From: Prosthecobacter sp.
GTDB lineage: Bacteria; Verrucomicrobiota; Verrucomicrobiia; Verrucomicrobiales; Verrucomicrobiaceae
NCBI GenBank assembly: GCA_021733925.1
Contig: JAIPJY010000020.1
Coordinates: 48,019-112,018, forward strand
Length of the DNA: 64,000 nucleotides
Reading direction: 5' to 3'
Translations under genes and position numbers: made by a program
Notes under the pieces: model-generated
What the model was told of the DNA's origin: nothing
Databases searched by the model: none
Seen by the model: only the letters and a program-made list of their open reading frames with translations
In this document: piece after piece, positions 33,779 to 48,798 of the stretch
Numbering within the stretch: the first letter of the stretch is position 1
How the letters are laid out: every line of letters starts with the position of its first letter

Positions 33779-36490
33779 CTATGCGCGGCGGCGGCGCAGG
33801 CAAAGACCACCCATGGCGAGGAAAAGCAGGCTCATGCGTCCTGGCTCAGGCACCACGACAATATTGCCGGAAGTCGTGAAGCGGCTGACATCCCAGAACA
33901 AACCGCTGGCGCTGATGTCCGGCAGATCAAACTGGCTGCCATTGTCACCGCTGCCATCGCGCAAATTCGTGCCCACCGAAAAACCGCTGAAATTGGTGGT
34001 CAGCACCGTCGCCCAATCCACCAGATTGATGACATCCCCCGCATGCGGCGTGTAGCTGCTGGAAAGCACGATGATGTTGCCTGCGACGGTGAGCGAGCCG
34101 CTCGTGCCGTTGAACACCAGACGGTCATGCGCACCCACACCGGTGACAGAATCCACCCAGGTGTTGTAGTCAGTGCTGCCGATGGCAAACCCGCCAAAGG
34201 CGCCGTCACTGGCGGTGGGAGATGAGATGTCGAGATAAGTATTGGAGCCAGCGGCCAGGTTGTAGCTGGCCGTGGAAACGGGTGTGAAGGTCAGTGTGCC
34301 ATGGTCTGCCGCCGTCGTGCCATCACCGGCATACAGGGAGGCGTTGGAGTTCAGCGTGAAGCTGCTTCCCCGTACGATCCCTGTGCCCGAGAGGCTGGCA
34401 TTCGCTGCTACGGACACTGCGCCGGTGCCGGTTTGCCCCACGCCCGCCTTGCCGACTTGCAGCATGCCCGCGTTGACATTGGTCGCACTGCTGTACGTGT
34501 TGGCCCCGCTGAAAATCCAGGTGCCTGTCCCCGTTTTATTGACGTTGAGGGTGTTCGACAGCACGCCTTTGATTTCCCCGGTGCCTGAGCCTGTGAGGTT
34601 GAAAGTATGCGCGGTGCTGTCGGTGGAGGCGGCGTTCACATCTCCCTTGATCAGCAGACTGCTGCCCGCCGCCACATCCAGCGTGAGCGTGGCACCCACT
34701 GTGGCACGCACGGCACCCTCCCAGGTGTTGTTTCCGCCAATGTTTTCGATGTAGGGAGTGATGACAGATTCCCCCGTCACGGTGATGTTGTTGTCCAGCT
34801 GCAGACGACCGTTGGTGGCAGTAAACAGAACGCCATTGCCGGTGCCCCCCAGCGCACCATTGCTGCGCACCAGCAAATTCCCCGCACTCACGGTAAGCAG
34901 GCCGGTAAACGTGCTGGTGCCGCCCAGCGCCAGGGTGCCACCCCCTGCTTTAATAATCTCTGTGGCCGTGGTGCCATCAGCGATGTTGCCGCTCAAGGTC
35001 AGGACTCCCGTGCTAACCGTGATGGTGCGGCTGGTTCCAGCCGCCGTGCCCAGGCTGACAGCCCCGGTGCCGAGATTCAGCGCATTGGTCAGGGCCGCGC
35101 TGAAATCCGCGTTAATCACGATGGCATTGCCGTTGGTGATGGCGACCGTCGCACCGCTGCTGTTGCCGAGCGTCCCGCCATTGATGGTGAAGATGCTCGC
35201 CGTGGCACCCAGCGCCGTGGCGCTGTTCAGATTCAGCCCGCCCTGATTGAGCGTCAGGCCGCCGGTAAAGGTGTTGGTGCCGCTGAAGCTCTGGGTGAAC
35301 GTGCCCGTTTTAATGACCGAAAGTGCCCCGCCACCACTGCCATCCGCCAGGGTGCCAGCAAAAAGGGTGTCCGAGGTGGAGCTGATCGTCAGCGTGGCGG
35401 CCGTGGCATTTTCGTTGCGCACCGTGCTGGATCCCAACCCCGCCGCAGAAACCAGCGAGGCGATGGTGATCGAGTTGCCGTTCAGCGAGAGATTTCTCAG
35501 TACCGTGCTGCTGGCAAAGGTGACGCGATTGGGTGCGGTGGAATTGAGCGCCCCCGCGTTGTCGATGCGTACGTTCGTTACATCAATGGAAAGGCCGCCG
35601 GTGAAGGTGTTGTTCCCGCTCAGCACAATCGTTCCTGTGCTGGTGCCCTGGGTGCCGAAGCTCAAGGTGCTGCCGACGACGGACTCGTCGATGTTGGAAC
35701 TGATGATCGAGATGGCGGCGCCGGTATTTTGCGTGATGAGCGCGCTGCCTGCCAGCGTGAGGCCGCCGGAAAGCGTGAGGTTATTGCCTTCCAGGCGGAT
35801 GGCCCCGCGTCCGCCTGCGCCAGTTCCGCTGAGTGAGAAAGGCACCTGCCAGTTGCCACTCGCGCCGAGCACCAGCGTGACATTGGTGCCAACATTGACA
35901 ACCGTCAGGCCGGCAGAAGGCAGGGAGTTCACATTATTGACTTGCACGAAGAGCCCGTTGGCATCCGCCGAAGTGAGTGAAAAGGTGCCGGTAAGAGTGG
36001 AGGCACTGCCAATGGTGACCAGGGCGAGGGCAGTGGTGGCCGACTTTTGCAGGGTGATGTTGTTGCCATCCAAAGTCGAATTGATGGTCAGTCGCGAGGC
36101 AATCGAGCTGGACCCCTCTTGAACGGTGATGTTGGAACCGGAAGCGAGGGTGATCTTGCCCCCTGTCAAAGTGTAAGCCGTCGGGGTGATCGCCCTGAAG
36201 ATCAGTCCATTGGCGTTCACCGTCCCGGAAACGGTGACTGTTGCGCCTGAGCCTCCCGCTCCAAAAACGGCGATGTTTCCCGCCGAGTTGGACCAGGACT
36301 GATTTTGCAGGCTGTTTGTTTCGTCGAACCAGTTGCCGCTACCATCCACCCAGGTGCCGGCGCCGTCCTGCGCACCTGTCGTTCCCGTGGTCGCGTCCCA
36401 GACGAAAGTAGCCCCTTGGGCAGTGAACGGCATCCAGACCCCAAAAAGGAGGGTGGCCAGGGAGAATGGGAGGATTTTCAATCGAGACAT
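33779..36490 (-). CDS. PEP-CTERM protein with autotransporter-associated beta-strand repeats
   Basis: A 903-residue exported protein. Signal peptide residues about 1-27 (LPFSLATLLFGVWMPFTAQG). The bulk is Gly/Thr/Ser/Asn-rich beta-helix sequence with repeated LTLSGNI.DG, GTGTWIFSGANTYSSATNV and FTGGLTLNQGG-type motifs, matching the autotransporter-associated beta-strand repeat. The end VPEPGRMSLLFLAMGGLCL followed by RRRR is a PEP-CTERM sorting signal, so no outer-membrane translocator domain is present. Export and sorting would need an exosortase encoded elsewhere. Likely a surface or exopolysaccharide-associated protein. I chose ATG 36490 because it gives the signal peptide. Confidence 0.88.
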   Translation of the reverse strand: MSRLKILPFSLATLLFGVWMPFTAQGATFVWDATTGTTGAQDGAGTWVDGSGNWFDETNSLQNQSWSNSAGNIAVFGAGGSGATVTVSGTVNANGLIFRAITPTAYTLTGGKITLASGSNITVQEGSSSIASRLTINSTLDGNNITLQKSATTALALVTIGSASTLTGTFSLTSADANGLFVQVNNVNSLPSAGLTVVNVGTNVTLVLGASGNWQVPFSLSGTGAGGRGAIRLEGNNLTLSGGLTLAGSALITQNTGAAISIISSNIDESVVGSTLSFGTQGTSTGTIVLSGNNTFTGGLSIDVTNVRIDNAGALNSTAPNRVTFASSTVLRNLSLNGNSITIASLVSAAGLGSSTVRNENATAATLTISSTSDTLFAGTLADGSGGGALSVIKTGTFTQSFSGTNTFTGGLTLNQGGLNLNSATALGATASIFTINGGTLGNSSGATVAITNGNAIVINADFSAALTNALNLGTGAVSLGTAAGTSRTITVSTGVLTLSGNIADGTTATEIIKAGGGTLALGGTSTFTGLLTVSAGNLLVRSNGALGGTGNGVLFTATNGRLQLDNNITVTGESVITPYIENIGGNNTWEGAVRATVGATLTLDVAAGSSLLIKGDVNAASTDSTAHTFNLTGSGTGEIKGVLSNTLNVNKTGTGTWIFSGANTYSSATNVNAGMLQVGKAGVGQTGTGAVSVAANASLSGTGIVRGSSFTLNSNASLYAGDGTTAADHGTLTFTPVSTASYNLAAGSNTYLDISSPTASDGAFGGFAIGSTDYNTWVDSVTGVGAHDRLVFNGTSGSLTVAGNIIVLSSSYTPHAGDVINLVDWATVLTTNFSGFSVGTNLRDGSGDNGSQFDLPDISASGLFWDVSRFTTSGNIVVVPEPGRMSLLFLAMGGLCLRRRRA

Positions 36491-36624
36491 TCGTGAAGTA
36501 GGAGGGGAAAGAGACAGCGAGGCGCCGGAAACGTTGGATTCCCAGTAGAGCACAAATGGGAACTCTTGCCTGTCATGGATGCCAAAACCTCGTGAGTAGC
36601 GTTTTTCAAATGCCCAAAGCAAGG

Positions 36625-36641
36625 TTGGCCATGAACTTGCT
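36625..36641 (+). promoter_or_regulatory. Sigma-54-like promoter (site 1 of 3)
   Basis: TTGGCCATGAACTTGCT has the -24 GG (36627-36628) and -12 GC (36639-36640) at the exact 12-bp register and shows TGGC-N7-TTGC. Transcription would start near 36652, giving a leader of about 40 nt before the transglutaminase-DUF2126 gene. The same pattern precedes two more genes in this cluster. The rest of the 201-bp gap 36491-36691 shows nothing else. Confidence 0.7.
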
Positions 36642-36691
36642 AAATATAGTCCTGCAGGCATTGAGTCCCCGTCCGCCCCCAACCCTTTCGC

Positions 36692-39600
36692 ATGTCCATC
36701 CACGTCGCACTTCACCACCGCACCAGCTATCGCTACGATCGCCCCATTGAACTGGGTCCGCAGATCATCCGGTTGCGGCCTGCGCCGCATTCCCGCTCAC
36801 GCATCCTGAGCTACTCGCTGAAGATCACCCCGGAAAAGCATTTCCTGAACTGGCAGCAGGACCCGCAGTCAAACTACCTCGCCCGGCTGGTGATCCCGGA
36901 GAAAACCCAGGAATTCAGCATCGAGGTGGATGTGGTGGTGGAGATGGCGGTCTTCAATCCCTTCGACTTCTTCCTGGAGCCTGAGGGCGAGCATTTCCCC
37001 TTCGACTACGATGCCGCGCTGGATCAAGAACTGGCCCCCTTCCTGAAGTGCGGTGAACTCACTCCGAAATTCGCGGATTACTTCACTCTGATCGAGAGCG
37101 AACTGCTCGCCATGAAACCCTGGCCGCCTCGCACCATTGACGCCCTGGTGGCGATCAATCAGCGCCTGTGGAAGGACATCGGCTACACCGTCCGCATGGA
37201 GCCCGGCGTGCAGACTCCGGAGGAGTCCCTCACCAAGCGCACCGGCTCCTGCCGCGACACCTCATGGCTCATGGTGCAGCTCATGCGCCGTCTGGGCATC
37301 GCCGCTCGCTTTGTCAGCGGTTACCTCATCCAGCTGAAGCCAGACGTGAAATCCCTCGACGGCCCCAGTGGCACCGAGGTGGATTTCACCGACTTGCACG
37401 CTTGGTGTGAGGTTTATCTGCCCGGCGCCGGCTGGGTCGGACTCGATCCGACCTCAGGCCTCTTCGCCGGGGAAGGGCACATCCCGCTGGCCGCCACGCC
37501 TGAACCCCAGAGCGCCGCGCCGATCAGCGGCATGGCTGAGCCATGCGAAACAGAGTTCGACTTCGACATGACGGTCACTCGTATTTACGAGTCGCCCCGC
37601 GTCACCAAGCCCTACACCGAAGAGCAGTGGGCGGAGATCGCCGCATTGGGCCATGCCTTGGACAAAGAACTGGAAGCCAACGATGTACGCCTGACCATGG
37701 GTGGCGAACCGACCTTCGTTTCCATCGACGATGCTGAGGGTGCCGAATGGAATACCGCCGCCGTCGGGCCGATGAAGGCCAAGCTCTCGGATATCCTGCT
37801 CAAACGCCTCAGAGACCGCTTCGCCCCCGGGGCCTTCCTCCATTATGGCCAGGGCAAATGGTATCCCGGTGAATCACTGCCGCGCTGGTCTTACGGCTGC
37901 CATTGGCGCAAGGACGGCGAGCCTCTGTGGGCGCACCCTCATCTGTATGCCGACATGCAGAAGGACTATGGCGTGGACGAGACCCACTCCGCACGTTTCA
38001 TTCACGCTCTCGCCGAGCGCCTGGGCTGCAGCGGAGACTGGATCATGCCGACGTATGAAGACGCATTCTACTACCTCTGGCGTGAGCGCAAACTCCCGGT
38101 GAACGTGGATCCCCACAAATCGAACCTCAAAGAAAAGGAGGAGCGTACACGGCTCGCCAAGGTGTTCGAAGAAGGGCTCGACAAGATCATCGGCCACGTG
38201 CTCCCGATCAAACCGGCGGAAGAAGGCTGGGAAACCGGCCCGTGGTTCCTCCGTGCCGAGCGCTGCTATCTCGTGCCGGGGGATTCCCCCATCGGATTGC
38301 GACTGCCGCTTGATTCACAGCCTTGGGTCAAGACCACCGACTATCCCTACCATCACGAGCAGGACCCGATGGAAGACCGCGATCCGCTGCCCTCGCGCCA
38401 GCAGTTTGTGCGTGGCATCGAGGGCGTGCCGTCTTCCTATTGGAAAAAAATTGCCGAGCGTCGTGGCCCATCCAGTCCAGATGGACAGACTGCGGAGGAG
38501 GAAGGGCAGCAGCGTGACATTGATCCAGCCGCCCAGCCGCCCTCGGTAGGCCAGTCCGCCGACAAAATTGTGCGCACCGCCCTCTGTGTGCAGCCTCGTG
38601 ATGGCAAGCTGTTCGTGTTCATGCCGCCGACCAAGACGCTGGAGGAATATCTCTCCGCCCTGGGTGCTGTGGAAGATGTGGCACTGGCTCTGGATCAGCC
38701 CGTCGTGATCGAAGGCTATGCGCCACCCTATGACCCGCGCCTGCACGTGCTCAAGGTCACCCCTGACCCGGGCGTGATCGAAGTGAACGTGCATCCTGCC
38801 AAAAGCTGGGACGAAATGGTCAACATCACCGAGTCCCTCTATGACGAAGCGCGGCAGACCCGTCTCGGCACCGAGAAATTCATGGTCGATGGCCGCCACA
38901 CCGGCACCGGCGGCGGCAATCACATCGTCATGGGCGCAGAGACGCCCCAGGACAGTCCCTTCCTGCGTCGCCCCGATCTGCTGCGCAGCCTCACCAGCTA
39001 CTGGCAGAATCATCCTTCGCTCTCGTTCATGTTCGCCGGCATGTTTATTGGTCCCACCAGCCAGAGCCCGCGCATCGACGAAGCTCGCAACGATTCGCTC
39101 TACGAACTCGAAGTGGCCTACAGAGCCGCAGCTGATGTCGCCGCCAAGGGCGGTCCGGTAGCACCATGGCTGGTGGACCGTTTGTACCGCAACCTCTTCA
39201 TCGACTCCAGCGGCAACACCCACCGCGCCGAGTTCTGCATCGACAAGCTCTACTCGCCGGACAGCAGCACCGGCCGCCTCGGCCTGCTCGAAATGCGCGG
39301 TTTTGAAATGCCACCGCATCCGCACATGAGCCTCGCCCAGGCTCTCATGCTGCGCACCCTCATCGCCCGCTTCTGGAAGGAGCCCTACGAGGTGCCGCTG
39401 GTGCGCTGGGGCACGGACATCCACGACCGCTGGATGCTCCCGCACTTTGCCTGGAGCGACATCGAAGACGTCTGCCATGACACCCAGCAGGCCGGTTTCG
39501 AACTCAAGCCCGAGTGGTTCGCGCCACATTATGAGTTCCGCTACCCGATCAGCGGCGACTGGTGCACCCGCAACGTCAACGTGGAAATCCGTCAGGCTCT

Positions 39601-40081
39601 GGAGCCCTGGCACGTGCTCGGTGAGGACAACGGTGCCGGTGGTGCCGTGCGCTTCGTGGATTCCTCCCTCGAACGCATTCAAATCAAGGCGCAGGGCATG
39701 GTGGAAGGTCGCTACGCCATCACCTGCAATGGGCGCACCGTGCCCATGCATCCGACCGGCACCAACGGCGAATACGTCGCCGGGGTCCGCTACCGCGCCT
39801 GGCAGCCGCCAAACTGTCTGCAGCCCACCGTGGGCGTCCACTCACCGCTTACGATTGACCTCGTCGATCAGTGGAATCAGCGCTCGCTGGGTGGCTGCAC
39901 GTATCATGTCGCACATCCAGGTGGCCTGAGCCACGAGACCTTCCCGGTGAATGCCTATGAGGCCGAAAGCCGCCGCTACTCCCGCTTCTTCCGCCACGGC
40001 CACACCCCTGGAAAGATGAAGGTGGAGCCAGCCAGGCCGAATCCGGAGTTCCCATTCACCCTGGATTTGCGGAATGGCTGA
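36692..40081 (+). CDS. Transglutaminase-like / DUF2126 protein
   Basis: A 1129-residue protein without signal peptide. Residues about 1-290 are a transglutaminase-like cysteine peptidase domain: a BTLCP-type N-terminus (HHRTSYRYDRPIELGPQIIR), then a catalytic triad C187 (GSCRDTSW), H236 (LHAWCEVY) and D252 (GLDPTSG). Residues about 330-1129 are DUF2126, with LTMGGEPTFVS, WYPGESLPRWSYG and a GTGGGNHIVMG segment. Such genes are regularly found with circularly permuted ATP-grasp and alpha-E genes, as here, and are predicted to hydrolyse or transfer peptide bonds made by those ligases. A sigma-54-like element lies upstream. Confidence 0.9.
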   Translation: MSIHVALHHRTSYRYDRPIELGPQIIRLRPAPHSRSRILSYSLKITPEKHFLNWQQDPQSNYLARLVIPEKTQEFSIEVDVVVEMAVFNPFDFFLEPEGEHFPFDYDAALDQELAPFLKCGELTPKFADYFTLIESELLAMKPWPPRTIDALVAINQRLWKDIGYTVRMEPGVQTPEESLTKRTGSCRDTSWLMVQLMRRLGIAARFVSGYLIQLKPDVKSLDGPSGTEVDFTDLHAWCEVYLPGAGWVGLDPTSGLFAGEGHIPLAATPEPQSAAPISGMAEPCETEFDFDMTVTRIYESPRVTKPYTEEQWAEIAALGHALDKELEANDVRLTMGGEPTFVSIDDAEGAEWNTAAVGPMKAKLSDILLKRLRDRFAPGAFLHYGQGKWYPGESLPRWSYGCHWRKDGEPLWAHPHLYADMQKDYGVDETHSARFIHALAERLGCSGDWIMPTYEDAFYYLWRERKLPVNVDPHKSNLKEKEERTRLAKVFEEGLDKIIGHVLPIKPAEEGWETGPWFLRAERCYLVPGDSPIGLRLPLDSQPWVKTTDYPYHHEQDPMEDRDPLPSRQQFVRGIEGVPSSYWKKIAERRGPSSPDGQTAEEEGQQRDIDPAAQPPSVGQSADKIVRTALCVQPRDGKLFVFMPPTKTLEEYLSALGAVEDVALALDQPVVIEGYAPPYDPRLHVLKVTPDPGVIEVNVHPAKSWDEMVNITESLYDEARQTRLGTEKFMVDGRHTGTGGGNHIVMGAETPQDSPFLRRPDLLRSLTSYWQNHPSLSFMFAGMFIGPTSQSPRIDEARNDSLYELEVAYRAAADVAAKGGPVAPWLVDRLYRNLFIDSSGNTHRAEFCIDKLYSPDSSTGRLGLLEMRGFEMPPHPHMSLAQALMLRTLIARFWKEPYEVPLVRWGTDIHDRWMLPHFAWSDIEDVCHDTQQAGFELKPEWFAPHYEFRYPISGDWCTRNVNVEIRQALEPWHVLGEDNGAGGAVRFVDSSLERIQIKAQGMVEGRYAITCNGRTVPMHPTGTNGEYVAGVRYRAWQPPNCLQPTVGVHSPLTIDLVDQWNQRSLGGCTYHVAHPGGLSHETFPVNAYEAESRRYSRFFRHGHTPGKMKVEPARPNPEFPFTLDLRNG

Positions 40082-40126
40082 CAGGCTGAACGTTGACGCC
40101 ACATATCCCAGAGCCTAGATTCGGAC

Positions 40127-40342
40127 ATGAGTTCACGCAGTCAGGCCATCCTGAATCAGATCCAGGCGCTGCCCCCTGAGGAGCAGCAGGAGGTCTGTGA
40201 TCATGTGATGTTATGGGCACATGCGGCTGAAGCTGTTAGGGCGAATCGAGACCCCGTTCGCTCAGCGCGGGGGATGTTCGTTGGCAGCAGGTTGAACGAC
40301 GCTCTGATGAAACATCGTCAGGAGGAGCGCCGCCGTGGCTGA
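40127..40342 (+). CDS. Probable antitoxin of a VapBC-type pair
   Basis: A 71-residue protein (helical N-terminus ILNQIQALPPEEQQEVCDHV; basic C-terminus RLNDALMKHRQEERRRG). Its end overlaps the start of the PIN-domain gene by 8 bp, the usual arrangement of antitoxin then toxin. The sequence resembles small helical antitoxins that wrap VapC toxins, though I see no clear DNA-binding motif. Inserted between transglutaminase and ATP-grasp genes. Confidence 0.72.
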   Translation: MSSRSQAILNQIQALPPEEQQEVCDHVMLWAHAAEAVRANRDPVRSARGMFVGSRLNDALMKHRQEERRRG

Positions 40343-40745
40343 GGCCATCGTGCTGGACACCTCGGCATGTTTTGCCCTGCTGGAAGATGAAGGCGGAGCC
40401 GATGTCGTCGAAAAGCATCTTTTCGAAGCCAGGGCTGGCGATGTGGCAGTCCACGGATCGTTCGTGACGCTGACGGAAGTCGAATACATCACCCTGCAAG
40501 AACGTGGGGAAGAAGACGCCGCTCGGGCGATTGCTATTCTGGAGGCATGGCCGGTGAAATGGCATCATTCTGATCCTGCCGTCTGCTCTGCTGCTGCAAA
40601 ACTCAAAGCTGCGCACAAGATCTCTTTTGCGGATGCTTTCGTCGCCTCACTGGCCCAGAGCCTGCATGCGACTCTCATTCACAAAGACCCGGAGTTCCTG
40701 GCATTGACCGGTTCATTGAAGCAGAAGATGCTTCCCCCAAAATGA
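40335..40745 (+). CDS. vapC: PIN-domain ribonuclease, VapC-type toxin
   Basis: A 136-residue PIN domain. The start is GTG 40335, inside the end of the antitoxin gene. Acidic metal ligands are in place: D8 (IVLDTSACFALLE), a mid Glu in LTEVEYITL, and D99 region (ISFADAFVASLA), with IHKDPEF at the end. VapC toxins cleave tRNA or rRNA and arrest growth when the antitoxin decays. It interrupts the transglutaminase/ATP-grasp cluster, probably as an independently mobile module. Confidence 0.88.
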   Translation: MAEAIVLDTSACFALLEDEGGADVVEKHLFEARAGDVAVHGSFVTLTEVEYITLQERGEEDAARAIAILEAWPVKWHHSDPAVCSAAAKLKAAHKISFADAFVASLAQSLHATLIHKDPEFLALTGSLKQKMLPPK

Positions 40746-40765
40746 AGACCCCGCCATGCCAATTT

Positions 40766-40782
40766 ATGGCATAAACATTGCG
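40766..40782 (+). promoter_or_regulatory. Sigma-54-like promoter (site 2 of 3)
   Basis: ATGGCATAAACATTGCG shows TGGC-N7-TTGC with GG at 40768-40769 and GC at 40780-40781. Predicted transcription starts near 40792, downstream of the TTG at 40778, so it excludes that start and supports ATG 40919 for the following gene, with a leader of about 125 nt. Confidence 0.65.
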
Positions 40783-40918
40783 TTCATTCGACAAATGGGA
40801 TGCACTGGCGGGATCGATTCCTACTGTCACCATCGCCCCTCCAGCCACCTCCAACCTCGCATTGATCTTTCAATCTCAAAGCTCCACCACCGCCGCTCCC
40901 GCTTCACAACGGGCGGTG

Positions 40919-43447
40919 ATGTCGCGCTTGGATGGACCTGAGACTCGGGGGCATTACGACGAACTTCGGGACGCCAACGGCAAGGTTCGGCCGCATTACG
41001 AGCCCATCATCACCGATCTCACACGTCGTGATGCCGCTGGCGTCAAACGGCTGGCAGACACCGGCCGCCGCCTGCTGGCAGAGCGCGGAGTCACCTTCAA
41101 CATCTACGATGACAAAGGCTTGGACACCCCGTGGCACATGGACCCGGTGCCCTTTGTCATCTCGGCGCGTGAATGGGAGGGCATTGAAAAGGCGCTGATT
41201 CAGCGCGCGACGCTGCTGAATGCGATCTTGAACGACAGCTATGGCCCGCAGCAGCTGATCCGCGATGGCAGCATGCCCGCGGCGCTCGTGCTCGCACAAC
41301 CCGGCTATCTGCGGCCCTGCCACGGCATCAAACTTAAAAATGCCAAACCTCTGCAGATGTATGGCGCTGACATCGCCCGTTCTCCCGACGGTCAGTGGTG
41401 GGTCATATCCGATCGCACCCAGATTCCGACCGGCTCTGGCTACGCTTTGGAAAACCGCCTGATCACTTCGAGGCTGCTGCCAGATGTGTTTCGTGATGCG
41501 CGCGTGCGCCGCCTCGCCGGCTTCTTCCGCCAGATGCAGCAGTCCCTTGCCGCCCTGGCACCGCGGCCGGTGGAGGAACCGCGAGTCGTGCTGCTGACTC
41601 CCGGGCCGTACAATGAAACCTACTTTGAACAGGCCTATCTGGCCCGTTATCTTGGTTACACGCTGGTGGAAGGCGAAGACCTCACCGTGCGTGATGACCG
41701 GGTCTTTTTGAAGACACTCAACGGCCTGGAACCGGTGGACGTGATTCTGCGCCGCGTGGATGACGATTTCTGCGATCCGCTGGAGCTTCGCAACGACTCC
41801 ATGCTCGGCGTGCCCGGACTCGTGCGCGCCGTGCGTGCCGGCAATGTGGCGCTGGGAAATGCACTTGGCTCAGGCCTGGCCGAAGCCCCGGCAATGATGG
41901 CCTTCCTCCCCGGCTTGTGCCGCAAGCTGCTGGGTTCGGAGTTGCTCATGCCCTCGGTGGCCACCTGGTGGTGCGGACAGGAGAGGCCTCGTGGCGAGGT
42001 GGAAAAAAATCTCGACCGCATGGTCATCAAGAGCGCCTTCCGCGTGCGCGGACGTGATGCTTGCTTTGGCGGGAAGCTCAGCGGTGCTGAGCGTGCCGCC
42101 CTCGCTGAACGCATGCGCTTTGCGCCGGATCGCTGGGCGGCGCAGGAAAAGATCGCCTTTTCCACCGCACCGATGTGGGAGGACGGCCATCTTGTGCACA
42201 AACCGGTGAGCGTCCGGGTTTACCTCGTTGCCACCAAGGACGGCTACATGGTCATGCCGGGTGCTTTGACGCGTGTGGCCGCCACGATGGATTCTCCCCT
42301 CGTGTCCATGCAGAAAGGCGGCACCAGCAAAGACACCTGGGTGCTCAGTGACGGTCCGGTGGAGAGCGTCACCCTTCTGTCCAACACCAGCACTCCGGTG
42401 GAACTCCGCCGTACGGGCCACAATCTCGGCAGCCGTGTTTCAAATCATCTTTACTGGCTCGGACGCTATGCCGAACGCGCTGAATCCAGCGCCCGCCTCC
42501 TGCGCTCCACCCTGCTGCGTTGCTCGCCTGAAAGCGGCATGAGCGAAACACCCCTGCTGCTGCCGCTGCTGGAGGCCTTGAAGTGCCTCACCGTCTTGGA
42601 TGATGTCCCGGATGCCGCCGCGCTGGCCTCCCAGCAGGAGCAGCTCGAAGCCCGGCTGCTTGAGGCGGTGTTTGATGCCAATCATCCCACCAGCATCCGC
42701 TCCTGCGTGACGCACATCCAGCGCATCGGCGTCCTGCTCCGTGACCGCATTTCGGTCGATACCTGGCGTATCATCAGCCAGCTCAGCGACGCTTTGGATG
42801 CCTACGACAACACGCCGAGCATCACGCCGATGTCTGACGCGCTGAACGTCCTCACCCGCATCATCCTTGAACTCGCCTCCTTCCACGGTCTGGCGAAGGA
42901 AAACATGACGCGCGCCCAAGGCTGGATGTTCCTGGACATCGGCCACCGCATCGAGCGCACGGTGTACATCTGCGAGCTCCTGCGGGCCGGACTGCGCAGC
43001 ACCGATGCCGAAAATCCAAGCCTGCTGGAGGCCATTCTGGAGGTGGGTGACAGCACCATCACCTACCGCAATCGCTACAGCCTGCTGCCGCAGCTGGCCG
43101 CCGTGTATGACCTGCTCATGCTCGACGAGCAGAACCCGCGCGGCCTGCGTTTCCAGTTTGAACGCATCCGCCAGCAGTTCAAGCATCTGCCCCACGAACT
43201 CAATTCAGCGGTGCTCACGCCGGCGATGCGCGTGTTTTTGGAAAACAGCACCCGGCTGCAGTTGTGTGATCCCACCGAACTCGCCCGTGTTGAGCCGGGC
43301 GGCTGGGCACAGACCCAGGTGGCCAGACTGCTCACCCAGCTCATCGAGGCCATGCCACAGCTCAATGATGCGCTGACCGCAGGTTATTTCGCGCACTCCA
43401 CCATCAGCAGCAGCGAAGCCTCGCCTGCTGACACAACACCCACGTGA
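40919..43447 (+). CDS. Fused circularly permuted ATP-grasp / alpha-E protein
   Basis: An 842-residue protein from ATG 40919 (alternative TTG 40778 rejected on promoter position). Residues about 1-480 are a circularly permuted ATP-grasp ligase (DUF404/DUF407 type): YDELRDANGKVRPHYEP, a TFNIYDDKG segment, LLTPGPYNETYFEQAYLARY and VDVILRRVDDDFCDPLELR. Residues about 510-830 are the alpha-E helical domain (DUF403): HLYWLGRYAERAESSARLLR. The ligase half is predicted, from family analysis, to form amide bonds between amino acids or on peptides with ATP. In this same cluster the two domains occur also as separate genes. The stop overlaps the next start (TGATG). Confidence 0.9.
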   Translation: MSRLDGPETRGHYDELRDANGKVRPHYEPIITDLTRRDAAGVKRLADTGRRLLAERGVTFNIYDDKGLDTPWHMDPVPFVISAREWEGIEKALIQRATLLNAILNDSYGPQQLIRDGSMPAALVLAQPGYLRPCHGIKLKNAKPLQMYGADIARSPDGQWWVISDRTQIPTGSGYALENRLITSRLLPDVFRDARVRRLAGFFRQMQQSLAALAPRPVEEPRVVLLTPGPYNETYFEQAYLARYLGYTLVEGEDLTVRDDRVFLKTLNGLEPVDVILRRVDDDFCDPLELRNDSMLGVPGLVRAVRAGNVALGNALGSGLAEAPAMMAFLPGLCRKLLGSELLMPSVATWWCGQERPRGEVEKNLDRMVIKSAFRVRGRDACFGGKLSGAERAALAERMRFAPDRWAAQEKIAFSTAPMWEDGHLVHKPVSVRVYLVATKDGYMVMPGALTRVAATMDSPLVSMQKGGTSKDTWVLSDGPVESVTLLSNTSTPVELRRTGHNLGSRVSNHLYWLGRYAERAESSARLLRSTLLRCSPESGMSETPLLLPLLEALKCLTVLDDVPDAAALASQQEQLEARLLEAVFDANHPTSIRSCVTHIQRIGVLLRDRISVDTWRIISQLSDALDAYDNTPSITPMSDALNVLTRIILELASFHGLAKENMTRAQGWMFLDIGHRIERTVYICELLRAGLRSTDAENPSLLEAILEVGDSTITYRNRYSLLPQLAAVYDLLMLDEQNPRGLRFQFERIRQQFKHLPHELNSAVLTPAMRVFLENSTRLQLCDPTELARVEPGGWAQTQVARLLTQLIEAMPQLNDALTAGYFAHSTISSSEASPADTTPT

Positions 43448-44325
43448 TGAACTACCGCATCACACATCGCACGACGTACATTTACAGCTCTCAGGTGGCT
43501 GTGTCTCACCACGCCGCGCGTCTGCGGCCGCGTGATACGGAAACGCAGCGGTGCAAGGAGTTCAGTCTCAGCTTTGATCCAGAGCCGGACCTGCTCACTG
43601 AGCATACGGACTCCTTTGGCAACCAGGTCTCCTGCTTCTCCGTTCAAAAACTGCACAAGCATTTTGAAGTCACCTCGAAAAGCTTGGTCACGCTGGCGCC
43701 CGTATTGCAGCCAGATCCGCTGCAAACGCCTCCCTGGGAGGTCGTGGCGGCAAAATTTCGTGATCCCGTGGCGGTGGATCTGCTGGATCCCTGCCAGTTC
43801 GTGTTCGGCAGTCCGCTGCTGATCCATGAGATGCCGATGCGTGATTTTGCGCTGCCCAGTTTCACCAAGGGCCGCCCCGTGCTGGCCGCCACAGCCGATC
43901 TCTGCCGCCGCATTTATCGTGAGTTTGTGTTTGATTCGAAGGCGACCACGATCAGCACGCCGCTGAACGAAGTGCTGGAGAAAAAACGCGGTGTCTGCCA
44001 GGACTTCGCGCATCTCGCCATCGCCAGCCTGCGCGCCATGGGGCTGCCCGCACGCTACATCAGCGGCTACCTGCGCACGCATCCGCCCGCAGGCAAACCG
44101 CGGCTTCAAGGCGTCGATGCCTCGCATGCCTGGGCCTCCTGCTTTGTACCCGGCTTCGGCTGGGTCGATTTCGACCCCACCAACAACTGCTTCACTTCGC
44201 TGGACCACATCACCGTGGCCATCGGTCGTGATTTCTCAGATGTCAGCCCCGTGCGTGGCATCATCACCGGGGGTGGCAAGCATACCGTCGGCGTCGGTGT
44301 GGATGTCGAACCGGTGGGTGCCTGA
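43447..44325 (+). CDS. Transglutaminase-like cysteine peptidase (BTLCP type), first small copy
   Basis: A 292-residue protein. N-terminal beta domain MNYRITHRTTYIYSSQVAVS, then the catalytic domain with C184 (RGVCQDFAHLA), H227 (SHAW) and D243 (DFDPTN), all intact. ARYISGYL is a family hallmark. The start overlaps the stop of the fused ligase gene (TGATG), so they are translated together. Known for the family: predicted peptidases or amidases acting with ATP-grasp ligases. No signal peptide, so it probably acts in the cytosol. Confidence 0.9.
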   Translation: MNYRITHRTTYIYSSQVAVSHHAARLRPRDTETQRCKEFSLSFDPEPDLLTEHTDSFGNQVSCFSVQKLHKHFEVTSKSLVTLAPVLQPDPLQTPPWEVVAAKFRDPVAVDLLDPCQFVFGSPLLIHEMPMRDFALPSFTKGRPVLAATADLCRRIYREFVFDSKATTISTPLNEVLEKKRGVCQDFAHLAIASLRAMGLPARYISGYLRTHPPAGKPRLQGVDASHAWASCFVPGFGWVDFDPTNNCFTSLDHITVAIGRDFSDVSPVRGIITGGGKHTVGVGVDVEPVGA

Positions 44326-44367
44326 TCATAACCCTCCCCCGATGTCATTTGCAAAGCTTTCAAACTC

Positions 44368-44383
44368 TGGCACAGGCCTTGCT
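44368..44383 (+). promoter_or_regulatory. Sigma-54-like promoter (site 3 of 3)
   Basis: TGGCACAGGCCTTGCT is the closest of the three to the consensus TGGCACG-N4-TTGCW, with a single mismatch. GG is at 44369-44370 and GC at 44381-44382. Transcription would start around 44393, leaving only about 6 nt before ATG 44399, so a nearly leaderless mRNA is implied. It lies in the 73-bp gap in front of the second ATP-grasp gene. Confidence 0.75.
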
Positions 44384-44398
44384 AAGTAATATCTTCTC

Positions 44399-45880
44399 AT
44401 GTCGTCACTGTTTAACGACTACCAACCAGAGGGCTTCTTCGACGAGGTGTTTTCCAAAGCTGGGAAAGCACGTCCGCACTACGGAGCCATGCTTGATAGT
44501 GTAGGTTCACTCACCCCATCCGAATATTCCACGCGCCAAAAAGCCGTGGATGCCGCGTTCCTTCGCCAGGGCGTGACATTCACCGTTTACGGTGATGATC
44601 AAGGAACGGAACGCATCTTCCCCTTCGATCTCATGCCGCGGATCATCCCGCAGCGTGAATGGGAGACGATTGAAGCCGGCCTCATCCAGCGCATCACCGC
44701 GCTGAACCTCTTCCTCAACGACATCTATCACGGCCAGAAGATCATCACGGACAAGGCCGTGCCTGCGGAGCTCGTGCTCTCCGCCTCGCATTATCGGCCT
44801 GAGTTTCGCGGCATCAAAGTGCCTCACGGCATCTACATCCACATCTGCGGCACCGACCTCGTGCGCGATGGCAAGGGCGACTACTACGTGCTTGAAGACA
44901 ACGGTCGCTGCCCCTCCGGTGCCTCCTACATGCTGGAAAATCGCAATGCGATGAAGCGTGCCTTCCCCGGCCAGCTCCAGTCACTGCCCGTGCGCCCGGT
45001 GGATGCCTACGGCTCCATGCTGCGTGAAACGCTCGCACATCTTGCCCCCAGCGGCGTCCTGGATCCTGCCATCGTGGTGCTCACTCCCGGCATCTACAAC
45101 AGCGCCTATTTCGAGCACTGCTACCTCGCCAAACAAATGGGCGTGCCGATTGTTGAAGGCCGCGATCTCATTCTCCGCAATGATCGCGTCTTCATGCGCA
45201 CGACGAAGGGCCTTGAGCAGGTGCACGTCATCTATCGCCGTATTGACGACGATTTCCTCGATCCCCAGGTCTTCCGCAAAGACTCCCTGCTCGGCGTCCC
45301 GGGCATCATCAACGCCTATCGCAAAGGCAACGTCGCCCTCGCCAACTCCATCGGTACCGGTGTCGCGGACGACAAGGCCGTCTACGCACTGGTGCCGAAG
45401 ATGATCAAATACTACCTCGATCAGGATCCCATCCTGCCGAACGTGCCGACGCACTTGGGAGTCGATCCCAAAGAATGTTCCTTCATCCTCGACAACCTCG
45501 ACAAGCTCGTGGTCAAGGCGGTGAACGAGTCCGGCGGCTACGGCATGCTCATGGGACCCCATGCTTCGAAAAAGGAGCGCGCCGATTTTGCCGAGCTCAT
45601 CAAGAAGAACCCGCGCAACTACATCGCTCAGCCCGTGCTGCAGCTCTCACGCCACCCGGTGTTCGTCGATGATCATTTTGAAGGACGTCACATCGACCTT
45701 CGCCCCTATGTGCTCTGCGGTGACCGTGTGCGCGTCGTTCCCGGCGGTCTCACACGTGTGGCGCTCAAAAAAGGATCGCTCGTCGTGAATTCCTCCCAAG
45801 GCGGCGGCAGCAAGGACACCTGGGTGCTCTGGGATGACCCCCTCGACATGCCTGACGAAACCACCCCACCCGCCGCCTGA
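44399..45880 (+). CDS. Circularly permuted ATP-grasp protein (stand-alone)
   Basis: A 493-residue protein equal to the N-terminal half of the fused gene upstream, with parallel motifs: [50 protein letters not shown] and [18 protein letters not shown]. Nucleotide-binding segments include [14 protein letters not shown] and [12 protein letters not shown]. It is a paralogue rather than a duplicate, because identity is limited to family motifs. Followed after 9 bp by the alpha-E gene and then a transglutaminase gene, giving a complete second set. Confidence 0.9.
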
Positions 45881-45889
45881 TCACACGCC

Positions 45890-46945
45890 ATGCTTAGCCG
45901 AGTCGCAGACAGCATTTACTGGATGGCACGCTACGTCGAGCGTGCGGAAAACCTCTCACGCCTCCTGCTTTCCACGCAGGACCTCCTGCTCGATGCAGGT
46001 GCCGAGGGCGTCGACGAAGCGCAGTTCTGGCAGCCCCTCCTCGCCACCACCGGTGATGAAGAGGCGTACTCCAAGCTCCACAAAAAAATCAAAGGCAAGG
46101 ACGTCACCGAATTCCTCGCCCTGCGTTCGGACAATCCGAATTCGATGATCAACAGCATCCGGGCCGCACGCGAAAATGCGCGCACCGTGCGGGATCAAAT
46201 CTCCGATGAAATCTGGGAATGCCTGAACTCCCTGCGGCTCTTCGTCGAATCCGCCGAAGGCAAGGCCATGCACCGCACCCAGAGCGCCGCATTCTACGAG
46301 CGCGTCCTGCGCGGCTCTTACCAGTTTCAAGGCATCGCCGATTCCACCACACCCCGTGGGGAGATCTGGCACTTCCTCCGCCTCGGCACCTGCCTGGAGC
46401 GTGCGGACAAGATGTCCCGCCTGCTGGACACCTGCTCCGGCCTGTCCCTCGAACTGCCTCCCCATGCACAGGCCAGGCCGCTGCGCTGGGCCGCGCTCCT
46501 GCGCTCCTGTTCCGCCTGGCATGCGTTTCAGGCGCATCACCGCCGCCTCGTTCCAACCAAAATCATCGCCTATCTCCTGCTCGACGAGACCTTCCCGCGT
46601 TCCATCGCCTGCTGTGTCGCCGAAGCAGAATCCGCCCTGAAATCGCTCTGCGCGGATGGCGGACTCAAAGGCATGCCCTCACCTCTGCGCCATGTCGGAC
46701 GCCTGCGCGCCGATCTGGCCTTCACCACCGTGGAAGAAGTTCTCGCCACCGGTCTCCATGAATACATCGACGATCTGCAGGCACGCCTGAATCAGATCGG
46801 TGAAGCCATCTTCCAAACCTTCGTGCAGCACGCGGAACTCTCGCAGTTGACCGAGGAAGCCCCGGCGGAACCCATTGCGGCAGGTGCCTATCACCACGTG
46901 AACGAAGATCTTCAGGTTCAGCAGCAGCAGCAACAACAGCAGTAA
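45890..46945 (+). CDS. Alpha-E domain protein (DUF403) with poly-Gln tail
   Basis: A 351-residue, nearly all-helical protein. MLSRVADSIYWMARYVERAE is the standard alpha-E N-terminus, and EIWHFLRLGTCLERADKMSR is the second conserved block. The family always occurs with circularly permuted ATP-grasp ligases and may hold the substrate. The last residues are QVQQQQQQQQ, encoded by a CAG/CAA run at about 46915-46942, an unusual microsatellite-like tail for a bacterial gene. It begins 9 bp after the ATP-grasp gene, so the two are co-transcribed. Confidence 0.88.
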   Translation: MLSRVADSIYWMARYVERAENLSRLLLSTQDLLLDAGAEGVDEAQFWQPLLATTGDEEAYSKLHKKIKGKDVTEFLALRSDNPNSMINSIRAARENARTVRDQISDEIWECLNSLRLFVESAEGKAMHRTQSAAFYERVLRGSYQFQGIADSTTPRGEIWHFLRLGTCLERADKMSRLLDTCSGLSLELPPHAQARPLRWAALLRSCSAWHAFQAHHRRLVPTKIIAYLLLDETFPRSIACCVAEAESALKSLCADGGLKGMPSPLRHVGRLRADLAFTTVEEVLATGLHEYIDDLQARLNQIGEAIFQTFVQHAELSQLTEEAPAEPIAAGAYHHVNEDLQVQQQQQQQQ

Positions 46946-46977
46946 CCAGATCGTCGGCATTTTCTGCCGCGTGCTCC

Positions 46978-47829
46978 ATGCGATTCCGAGTCTTCCACCG
47001 CACGCGCTATGTTTACCGGGCGGCCGTGCGTGACAGCTACAACGAAGTGCGGCTGCGGCCCGTCACCGACGACAAATCACGCCTCGAATTCTTCCTGCTC
47101 AACGTCAAGCCTCCCGCACGCCTGCAGCACTTTCGGGACAACTGGCTTAACTATGTCCACTACTTCGACATCCAGGAGCCGCACACGGATCTGACCATCG
47201 AGTCGCAGGCAACGATCAACACCACCAATCCCTACAAAGAGGGCAAGCCGCTCGGCGTGCCCTTTGAAGCACTCAAAAGCGGGGTCGACGAAATGATCGC
47301 ACCTTTTCTCGGCGACAGCCGCTATGTGGCCGTCACGCCGGAAGTCTGGCGGCTGGGTATCGACATTCGCAATGACTGCAACGACGTTTTTGAAACGGCC
47401 GAGGCCGTGATGCATCACATCTATCGCGAGTGGAGCTACTCGCCCAGCACCACCACGGCCTCCACGCACATGAACGAGGTTCTGCAGCAGAAACAAGGCG
47501 TCTGCCAGGACTTCGCCCACCTCATGATCGGCATCTGCCGCTCGCTGGGCATTCCGGCGCGCTACGTCAGCGGTTATCTCTACAACGGTCCTGAATCCCA
47601 CCTGCGCGGCACTCAGGCCTCACATGCCTGGTGTGAGGTCTTCGTCCCCGGCAAAGGCTGGTTCGGCCTCGACCCCACCAACGACACCCTGGCAGATGAA
47701 CGCCACATCCTGATCGCCACCGGGCGTGATTACCAGGATGCCGCCCCCGTCTCCGGCCACTTCGACGGCCCGCCCGGAGCCACGGCGGCGCTCCAGGTCG
47801 AACTCGAAGTGCAGCGCTTGGATGCATAA
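46978..47829 (+). CDS. Transglutaminase-like cysteine peptidase (BTLCP type), second small copy
   Basis: A 283-residue protein with the same layout as the copy at 43447: FHRTRYVYRAAVRDSYNEVR at the N-terminus, then C176 (GVCQDFAHLM), H216 (SHAWCEV) and D232 (GLDPTND). It closes the second ligase set, 32 bp after the alpha-E gene. No signal peptide. Inferred to trim or transfer the product of the adjacent ligase. Confidence 0.9.
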   Translation: MRFRVFHRTRYVYRAAVRDSYNEVRLRPVTDDKSRLEFFLLNVKPPARLQHFRDNWLNYVHYFDIQEPHTDLTIESQATINTTNPYKEGKPLGVPFEALKSGVDEMIAPFLGDSRYVAVTPEVWRLGIDIRNDCNDVFETAEAVMHHIYREWSYSPSTTTASTHMNEVLQQKQGVCQDFAHLMIGICRSLGIPARYVSGYLYNGPESHLRGTQASHAWCEVFVPGKGWFGLDPTNDTLADERHILIATGRDYQDAAPVSGHFDGPPGATAALQVELEVQRLDA

Positions 47830-47961: not shown

Positions 47962-48798
47962 ATGGGGTTGTTCTCTCTTCCGGTGGTGAAAATAGGCTCG
48001 GTGTCCATGGATGGCACGGAACCAGTCCTGATGCTTGGCCCTTGCGTGATCGAGAGCGAGGAATTCATCTGGAGTGTCGCCGAAAAGCTCGGTGCCATGG
48101 CGCAGCAGCACGGCTGGCGCTGGATTTTCAAGGCCTCCTACGACAAGGCCAACCGCAGCGCTATTTCCTCGTACCGGGGTCTTGGCTGTGAAGCCGGCTG
48201 CAAACTGCTCGCCCAGATCGGCGCGAAACTCGGCGTGCCAGTGACCACCGACGTCCACAGCGTCGAGGAAGTCAAACAGGCCGCCGAACACATCGACCTC
48301 CTGCAAATCCCCGCTTTCCTCTGCCGCCAGACCGATTTGATCGTCGCAGCGGGTGAAACCGGCCGGGCCGTGAATGTCAAAAAGGGTCAGTTCCTCGCCC
48401 CCTGGGACGTTCGCAACATCGCCGACAAACTCGCCAGCGTCGGCTGCCAGAATTTCATGTTCACCGAGCGCGGCACCACCTTTGGCTACAACAACCTCGT
48501 CGCCGACATGCGCTCCCTCTACTGGATGCGGGAGCTCGGCTACCGCGTCGTCATGGATGCCACCCACAGCGTTCAGCGTCCCGGCGGTCTCGGCACCGCG
48601 ACCGGTGGCGATGGCAAACTGGCCCCGGTGCTCGCACGTGCCGCCGTGGCCACCGGCTGCGACGGCGTTTTCATGGAAACTCACCCGGATCCGGCCAACG
48701 CCTTTTCAGACGGCCCCAACCAAATCCCACTTTCGCAGATCGCCGAAGTGGTCGAAACCTTGCGCAAGATTCATGCCCTCGTTCGTGACATCACTTGA
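47962..48798 (+). CDS. kdsA: 3-deoxy-8-phosphooctulonate (KDO-8-phosphate) synthase
   Basis: A 278-residue protein of standard KdsA length. It condenses phosphoenolpyruvate with arabinose-5-phosphate to KDO-8-phosphate, the first committed step of the LPS inner-core sugar KDO, in the cytosol. GPCVIES, FKASYDKANRSA, the FRGLG-equivalent YRGLG, QIPAFLCRQTD and the DATHSVQ block are all present. It leads an operon with lptC, lptA and lptB, and its end overlaps the lptC start by 26 bp. This is strong evidence for a Gram-negative envelope with LPS. Confidence 0.96.
   Translation: MGLFSLPVVKIGSVSMDGTEPVLMLGPCVIESEEFIWSVAEKLGAMAQQHGWRWIFKASYDKANRSAISSYRGLGCEAGCKLLAQIGAKLGVPVTTDVHSVEEVKQAAEHIDLLQIPAFLCRQTDLIVAAGETGRAVNVKKGQFLAPWDVRNIADKLASVGCQNFMFTERGTTFGYNNLVADMRSLYWMRELGYRVVMDATHSVQRPGGLGTATGGDGKLAPVLARAAVATGCDGVFMETHPDPANAFSDGPNQIPLSQIAEVVETLRKIHALVRDIT

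Follow-up and report, generated by a model that had tools for sequence, protein, structure and literature searches.

Does sigma54 (RpoN) control an unusual cluster of ligase and transglutaminase genes in Prosthecobacter sp. as one regulon? The cluster lies on contig JAIPJY010000020.1 of assembly GCA_021733925.1, in a stretch of 64,000 nucleotides (nt; positions 48,019 to 112,018, hereafter the window, numbered from its first letter) with about 60% G+C; the genome holds 7.3 megabases in 127 contigs and is 93% complete. The original prediction, made from the letters of the window, was that three -24/-12 boxes mark a single RpoN regulon, probably linked to nitrogen or stress. Sequence comparison, on which all results below are based, supports this: sites 1 and 3 are conserved in register among relatives, the genome carries rpoN and the nitrogen link finds support, but the counting argument fails and site 2 is only probable. 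Sites 1 and 3 are almost certainly sigma54 promoters, and we consider it probable that all three units, including the one behind site 2, are sigma54-driven and nitrogen-linked. The boxes and the genes that they precede are as follows.

36625..36641, + strand: sigma54-type promoter 1 (TTGGCCATGAACTTGCT), predicted leader about 40 nt
36692..40081, + strand: transglutaminase N-terminal and core domains fused to DUF2126, a putative amidoligase, 1129 amino acids (aa) (PF08379, PF01841, PF09899)
40766..40782, + strand: probable sigma54-type promoter 2 (ATGGCATAAACATTGCG), 138 nt from the -12 C to the likely start
40919..43447, + strand: GraspAE, circularly permuted ATP-grasp fused to Alpha-E (PF14403, PF04174, PF04168)
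43444..44325, + strand: TG2, transglutaminase-like protein (PF08379, PF01841)
44367..44383, + strand: sigma54-type promoter 3 (CTGGCACAGGCCTTGCT), the window's best, its -12 C 17 nt before the ATG
44399..45880, + strand: stand-alone circularly permuted ATP-grasp, 493 aa (PF14403, PF04174)
45890..46945, + strand: Alpha-E protein (PF04168)
46978..47829, + strand: TG3, transglutaminase-like protein (PF01841, PF08379)

Conservation of sites 1 and 3

The string TGGC-N7-TTGC had been reported at 36625, 40766 and 44368. All three copies are present, two of the coordinates being one base low (36626, 40767 and 44368, + strand), and GG and GC do stand 12 bases apart in each, within the wider pattern TGGCA-N6-YTGCW. 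All are intergenic and on the + strand, as claimed; box 1 precedes the DUF2126 ATG at 36692 and falls inside the longest version of a divergent open reading frame (ORF), and box 3 follows the stop of TG2 (44325) and precedes the ATG of ATP-grasp (44399). The argument that about two matches would arise by chance in 64 kilobases (kb), so that three exceed chance, has to be given up: 4.82 are expected over both strands and nine are found, a number that 5 of 100 shuffles of the window reach. With a sigma54 weight matrix, box 3 scores 19.1 bits, the highest in the window, and ten simulated 64-kb windows peaked at 14.4–18.3 bits; the boxes at 36626 (13.1 bits) and 40767 (11.2 bits) rank 7th and 19th. 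Hence counting supports one box and not three, because only 44368 outscores the simulated windows. Judging sites 1 and 2 by window statistics alone was dropped, both being unremarkable in count and score, and the case for them rests on conservation across genomes, which is strong for site 1 and moderate for site 2; for site 3 it is again strong.

For the ATP-grasp gene we compared 80 homologues from titled genomes, and a second set comprised 48 genomes of the genus; many of the compared genomes are metagenome bins, possibly mistitled (Akkermansia and Polynucleobacter occur among the titles), and the counts given here are not probabilities because related loci are not independent. A spacing test, which counts TGGC-N-TGC by the length of N and is independent of the matrix weights, finds TGGC-N8-TGC in 45 of the 80 ATP-grasp upstreams, against 0–4 of 80 at every other spacing from 0 to 15 and 0–5 per spacing on the reverse strand. 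By the matrix, the 180 nt upstream of the gene contain a box scoring at least 13 bits in 41 of the 80 loci, compared with 1.06% of 1,600 random stretches from the same loci. Among 39 aligned sites, which were chosen by the TGGC-N8-TGC pattern itself, most other positions vary. The homologue is present in 47 of the 48 genus genomes, and in 29 of the 30 best genus loci (window included) a box of 10 bits or more lies at most 120 nt from the start; the thirtieth, L020, is a cut contig and off register, and the box of that same contig (G021:C247) was seen in the pattern scan.

Site 1 is also widely kept. A box of 10 bits or more precedes the gene in all 13 cluster loci, window included, and in 28 of 29 DUF2126 upstreams from the genus (30 were fetched, the N-terminus being found in 29); the sole miss, L165, has only 49 nt before the contig end. 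TGGC-N8-TGCT occurs in 27 of the 30 upstreams and 0–2 times at other spacings. In a clade about 63–66% identical the box reads CTGGCACG-N5-TGCT, 22–31 nt from the ATG, and site 1 is retained in genomes in which the DUF2126 gene is not adjacent to the rest of the cluster. The expectation that the elements would be conserved in relatives is thus borne out for sites 1 and 3, despite changed flanks and gene order, and in part for site 2 (seven clade members).

Three side observations belong to this region. The divergent ORF (33779-36790, − strand) is large and autotransporter-like, with passenger-associated transport repeats, and its true start is probably near 36490. In many relatives (part of L162-L177) a stretch TAGTCYCGCG.AA.CG...GGCAAG...TTTTC lies about 15–80 nt upstream of site 1; it differs in the window's genome and may represent a binding site for an activator or the tail of a neighbouring gene. 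At G043:C14:6775-10154 the DUF2126 gene is split into two matches that overlap, which probably reflects a frameshift of that genome or its assembly.

Site 2 and the extent of the proposed regulon

Does GraspAE have a sigma54 promoter of its own? In the window, two further features separate it from the DUF2126 gene.

40127..40342, + strand: small ORF ahead of the PIN gene, 71 aa, likely an antitoxin to judge from its position
40335..40745, + strand: PIN-domain toxin-like gene within the cluster (PF01850)

Box 2 lies past the stop of the PIN gene (40745) and ahead of the likely start of GraspAE; the longest GraspAE ORF runs from 40778 to 43447, and homologues place the start probably at 40916 or 40919. 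TGGC-N7-YTGC occurs about 135–145 nt before GraspAE in 7 of 17 clade rows, window included. The copies in the window, L035, L036 and L039 are identical (11.2 bits), and those in L041, L042 and L044 differ in sequence and score 18.0, 16.0 and 14.4 bits. Nine rows have nothing above 8.2 bits upstream of GraspAE, and L047 is too short to tell. This division follows gene order: in all nine rows without the box the DUF2126 gene ends about 130–150 nt upstream of GraspAE, and in all seven rows with it the two genes are held apart by a toxin-antitoxin pair, its remnant or other DNA. Site 2 is therefore present where GraspAE would otherwise be without a nearby sigma54 promoter.

The same pattern can be read in another way, namely that sigma54 acts at sites 1 and 3 alone, that GraspAE-TG2 is transcribed from site 1 or by a housekeeping promoter close to its start, and that site 2 is a remnant. 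The absence of the box in all nine relatives in which DUF2126 abuts GraspAE speaks for this, as does a conserved TACTRT-like stretch downstream of site 2. Site 2 also scores low in the window, and the 20 GraspAE genes of the far clade (about 40% identical) have weak boxes, of which 12 reach 10 bits and several read GT for GC. Against a remnant, every one of the seven clade rows with separated genes carries the box, three in versions that differ from the window's at 14.4–18.0 bits. We regard a remnant as doubtful, while giving it real weight.

As to the other genes, no site of 7 bits or more was found within the upstream 150 nt of those inside the proposed units (TG2, Alpha-E and TG3; 0 of 54 rows), TG2 accounting for 17 of these rows. 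The cluster would then comprise three transcription units, transglutaminase-DUF2126, GraspAE-TG2 and ATP-grasp-AlphaE-TG3, each headed by a -24/-12 promoter.

Two observations concern the DNA around box 2. The small ORF and PIN pair (40127-40745) occurs in some relatives and was not found in others: the PIN gene is also present in L036 and L039, with a remnant in L035 (by eye), and the small ORF gave no Pfam match at 1e-5. The pair is perhaps a mobile insertion. A perfect palindrome with 6-base-pair arms, ATGCCA-ATTTA-TGGCAT (40756-40772), overlaps the -24 box of site 2 and is a possible terminator or toxin-antitoxin operator.

Probable nitrogen signal and promoter-to-start spacing

The presence of rpoN, in one copy, agrees with the regulon as predicted. 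In the mechanism that we propose, sigma54 polymerase would be held closed at the promoters until an AAA+ enhancer-binding protein remodels it; the activator is most likely an NtrC-like response regulator sensing nitrogen limitation, and upon activation all three units would be expressed together. The genome has 14 matches to PF00158, five of them strong, of which four carry a response-regulator domain and one is RtcR-like. Candidate activators are C64:24176 and C21:17522, with the evidence favouring neither. Ten small genomes keep the short-spacing ATP-grasp box described below; nine have 1–3 strong activator matches and one has none, and these matches form two families related to C21 and C64 of the window's genome (G000).

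The nitrogen part of the prediction is supported by the company that this promoter type keeps. At least one ammonium transporter gene (amtB) with a box of 15 bits or more is found in 13 of 13 genus genomes examined; by locus, 16 of 30 fetched (of 39 matches) have one. In the 48 genus genomes, YTGGCAC-N6-TGCT followed by ATG 10–15 nt on has 85 matches, of which 22 fall at ATP-grasp places, and the reversed pattern has 10. Of 30 matches fetched, six precede ATP-grasp genes, five a gene for an NMT1-type binding protein (PF13379) and three glutaminase (PF04960), the other 16 being mostly in long open frames or unclear. NMT1-type proteins bind nitrate, taurine or similar compounds. There is also a precedent in Burkholderia cenocepacia H111, in which the transglutaminase-like cluster I35_5080-83, with a large transglutaminase-like protein among its products, belongs to the common sigma54 and NtrC targets; the ntrC-mutant table gives -9.4 and -6.0 (PMC5491218).

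It is unlikely that these are sigma54 promoters answering to another stress, or to carbon or envelope state, instead of nitrogen. The five activators, one of them RtcR-like, leave room for such a signal, as do the many pathways that sigma54 is described as serving (PMC12316311). The same promoter type on the ammonium transporter, glutaminase and NMT1-type genes argues for nitrogen, as do the Burkholderia NtrC data. PMC5666114 and PMC6376114 further cite, for Pseudomonas putida or in general, that the related Anbu operon is induced when nitrogen is limiting.

Several results weigh against a single nitrogen-linked sigma54 regulon. The matrix weights were background values, not computed in this analysis. 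No box of 10 bits or more is present at 27 of the 80 ATP-grasp loci, seven Chlorobium-type homologues among them, and among eight plasmid-borne homologues examined (of 117 records) three reach 13 bits, two of these being Caballeronia. YTGGCA-N6-YTGCT occurs 29 times in the window's genome against 15 for the reversed pattern, a modest excess only, and in ten small Verrucomicrobiota genomes the general pattern is not enriched (78 against 144 reversed). Because 46 of 50 hosts searched (of the 80) carry rpoN, one of the 46 as a fragment, its presence does not separate loci with boxes from loci without; it was found in hosts of both kinds and was rejected as a discriminator. No activator site or dyad shared upstream of the boxes was seen by eye in the compared upstream sequences. 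Unchanged expression of the Anbu operon under various conditions is also cited in PMC5666114.

The spacing at site 3, which the original prediction had missed, raises a further question, namely how the ATP-grasp message is translated. Sigma54 polymerase initiates about 12 nt after the -12 C. From this fixed distance, and with the ATG 17 nt after that C, the leader at the 44368 promoter would be about 5 nt, and 1–5 nt in relatives. In 41 of the 80 ATP-grasp loci a box of at least 10 bits is combined with a start codon (ATG in 37, GTG in 4) 13–17 nt downstream of its C, and in 23 of these 41 the spacing is exactly 13 nt. A protein tree was built by a quick method from the window, four genus loci and 77 of the 80 homologues (L086, L092 and L105 were left out, with a translated stretch of at most 300 aa). 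In it the short-spacing rows form one clade of 19 members, most of which carry Opitutae titles, and another of 22 that includes the window, with L099 apart from both. Both clades have a support of 100 in the SH-like approximate likelihood ratio test (SH-aLRT), and the tree implies three changes. The six loci fetched from the genus's far clade have an ATP-grasp distance of 37–50 nt.

Other genes share the arrangement. For the NMT1-type gene (34 matches in 32 of the 48 genus genomes), all 30 loci fetched carry a -24/-12-like box 14–19 nt from the ATG, 27 scoring 10 bits or more; the copy in the window's own genome (G000:C126:111439-112506, L366) has a weak one, 9.3 bits at 14 nt. The box-to-start distance is 13–14 nt for glutaminase in three loci and 16 nt for amtB in three small genomes, and for the C102 amtB of the window's genome a longer leader, of about 27 nt, is predicted. 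By this geometry, which places the predicted start a few nt from the start codon and leaves no room for a Shine-Dalgarno site, the ATP-grasp mRNA would be leaderless or nearly so. For the phylum as a whole, we put at about even the chance that much of the sigma54 nitrogen response in Verrucomicrobiota is delivered as leaderless or near-leaderless mRNAs, from -24/-12 promoters 13–19 nt before the start codons of ammonium transporter, glutaminase, NMT1-type and ATP-grasp genes. Some Verrucomicrobia are poor in Shine-Dalgarno sites, according to one survey (PMC10783764).

The counter-evidence begins with the 39 of 80 ATP-grasp loci from which the short-spacing form is absent. In four NMT1-type loci, own genome included, a Shine-Dalgarno-like GGGAGGG stands one base before the ATG. 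Upstream of the -12 C, 14 of the 41 short-spacing loci have a further ATG, GTG or TTG in frame, which makes the start less sure there and would allow an ATP-grasp gene that is not leaderless, with another start codon or with transcription beginning further upstream. The ATG, however, directly precedes the conserved protein start (YQP..FFDE in the window's clade), and 17 of the 41 have no in-frame start codon before position 13, among them L113 and L130, in which a stop codon just past the box closes the frame. We hold an ATP-grasp gene that is not leaderless to be distinctly improbable.

The alternatives on site 2, signal and leader each deny one part of the proposed explanation, and they overlap. 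That the three boxes are functionless chance matches in a window of 60% G+C is very hard to credit: nine strings against 4.8 expected and the 7th and 19th ranks of sites 1 and 2 would fit, but in-register conservation across diverged genomes and altered neighbourhoods does not, and site 2 alone could still be such a match.

Comparison with known systems

Near-leaderless spacing as a feature of sigma54 promoters did not come up in searches of openly licensed papers on leaderless mRNAs with sigma54, RpoN or Verrucomicrobia, and a cross-phylum survey of sigma54 regulons from 2025 (PMC12316311) has neither 'leaderless' nor 'transglutaminase' in its main text. Leaderless mRNAs as such are known from Leptospira, Sinorhizobium and Bradyrhizobium (PMC5243855, PMC3616915, PMC4842269), and the Leptospira paper also names those of Deinococcus. 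Their messages begin at the start codon or within a few nt of it, as is predicted here; those 5' ends were mapped on RNA, whereas ours are predicted from sigma54 geometry, and the Bradyrhizobium leaderless motif is described as an extended -10 box and not a -24/-12 element. If the prediction is right, activation by an enhancer-binding protein would feed directly into translation without Shine-Dalgarno sites, possibly favoured in starvation. Promoter-to-start spacing would then predict near-leaderless mRNAs made by sigma54, giving a sequence rule for finding further genes.

The cluster shares three of four protein families with the Anbu operon (ATP-grasp, Alpha-E, transglutaminase and the Anbu peptidase), but has in addition the DUF2126 fusion and a duplicated ATP-grasp/Alpha-E set. 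No PF00227 match to the proteasome-like subunit occurs in the genome, at 93% completeness, and an Anbu partner for the cluster was rejected for want of any proteasome-family match. Roles have been proposed for the related ATP-grasp/Alpha-E/transglutaminase operon without experimental confirmation, according to the Anbu papers (PMC5666114, PMC6376114). The job of the cluster may be the formation of amide bonds or the turnover of peptide-like material, with ATP-grasp and DUF2126 suggesting amide ligation and the transglutaminase folds suggesting amide cleavage or transfer.

A Caballeronia plasmid carries a similar set, with ATP-grasp, Alpha-E, transglutaminase-DUF2126 and GraspAE by Pfam and an annotated transglutaminase. 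Across its 19.4 kb only one box reaches 13 bits; it too is upstream of ATP-grasp, but about 215 nt from the start compared with 13–17 nt here. The closest regulatory parallel is Burkholderia cenocepacia H111, for which sigma54 and NtrC dependence of a cluster with a transglutaminase-like protein and a large transglutaminase-like protein is published (PMC5491218). The differences are that Burkholderia belongs to another phylum, that several boxes occur per cluster here, and that the Burkholderia likeness is known from the published description. As Burkholderia already provides an example of a cluster of this sort under sigma54 and NtrC, the regulon proposed here extends a known kind. RpoN nitrogen control in a second phylum, if true, would limit the likely functions to the storage, salvage or turnover of nitrogen, a proposal open to experiment.

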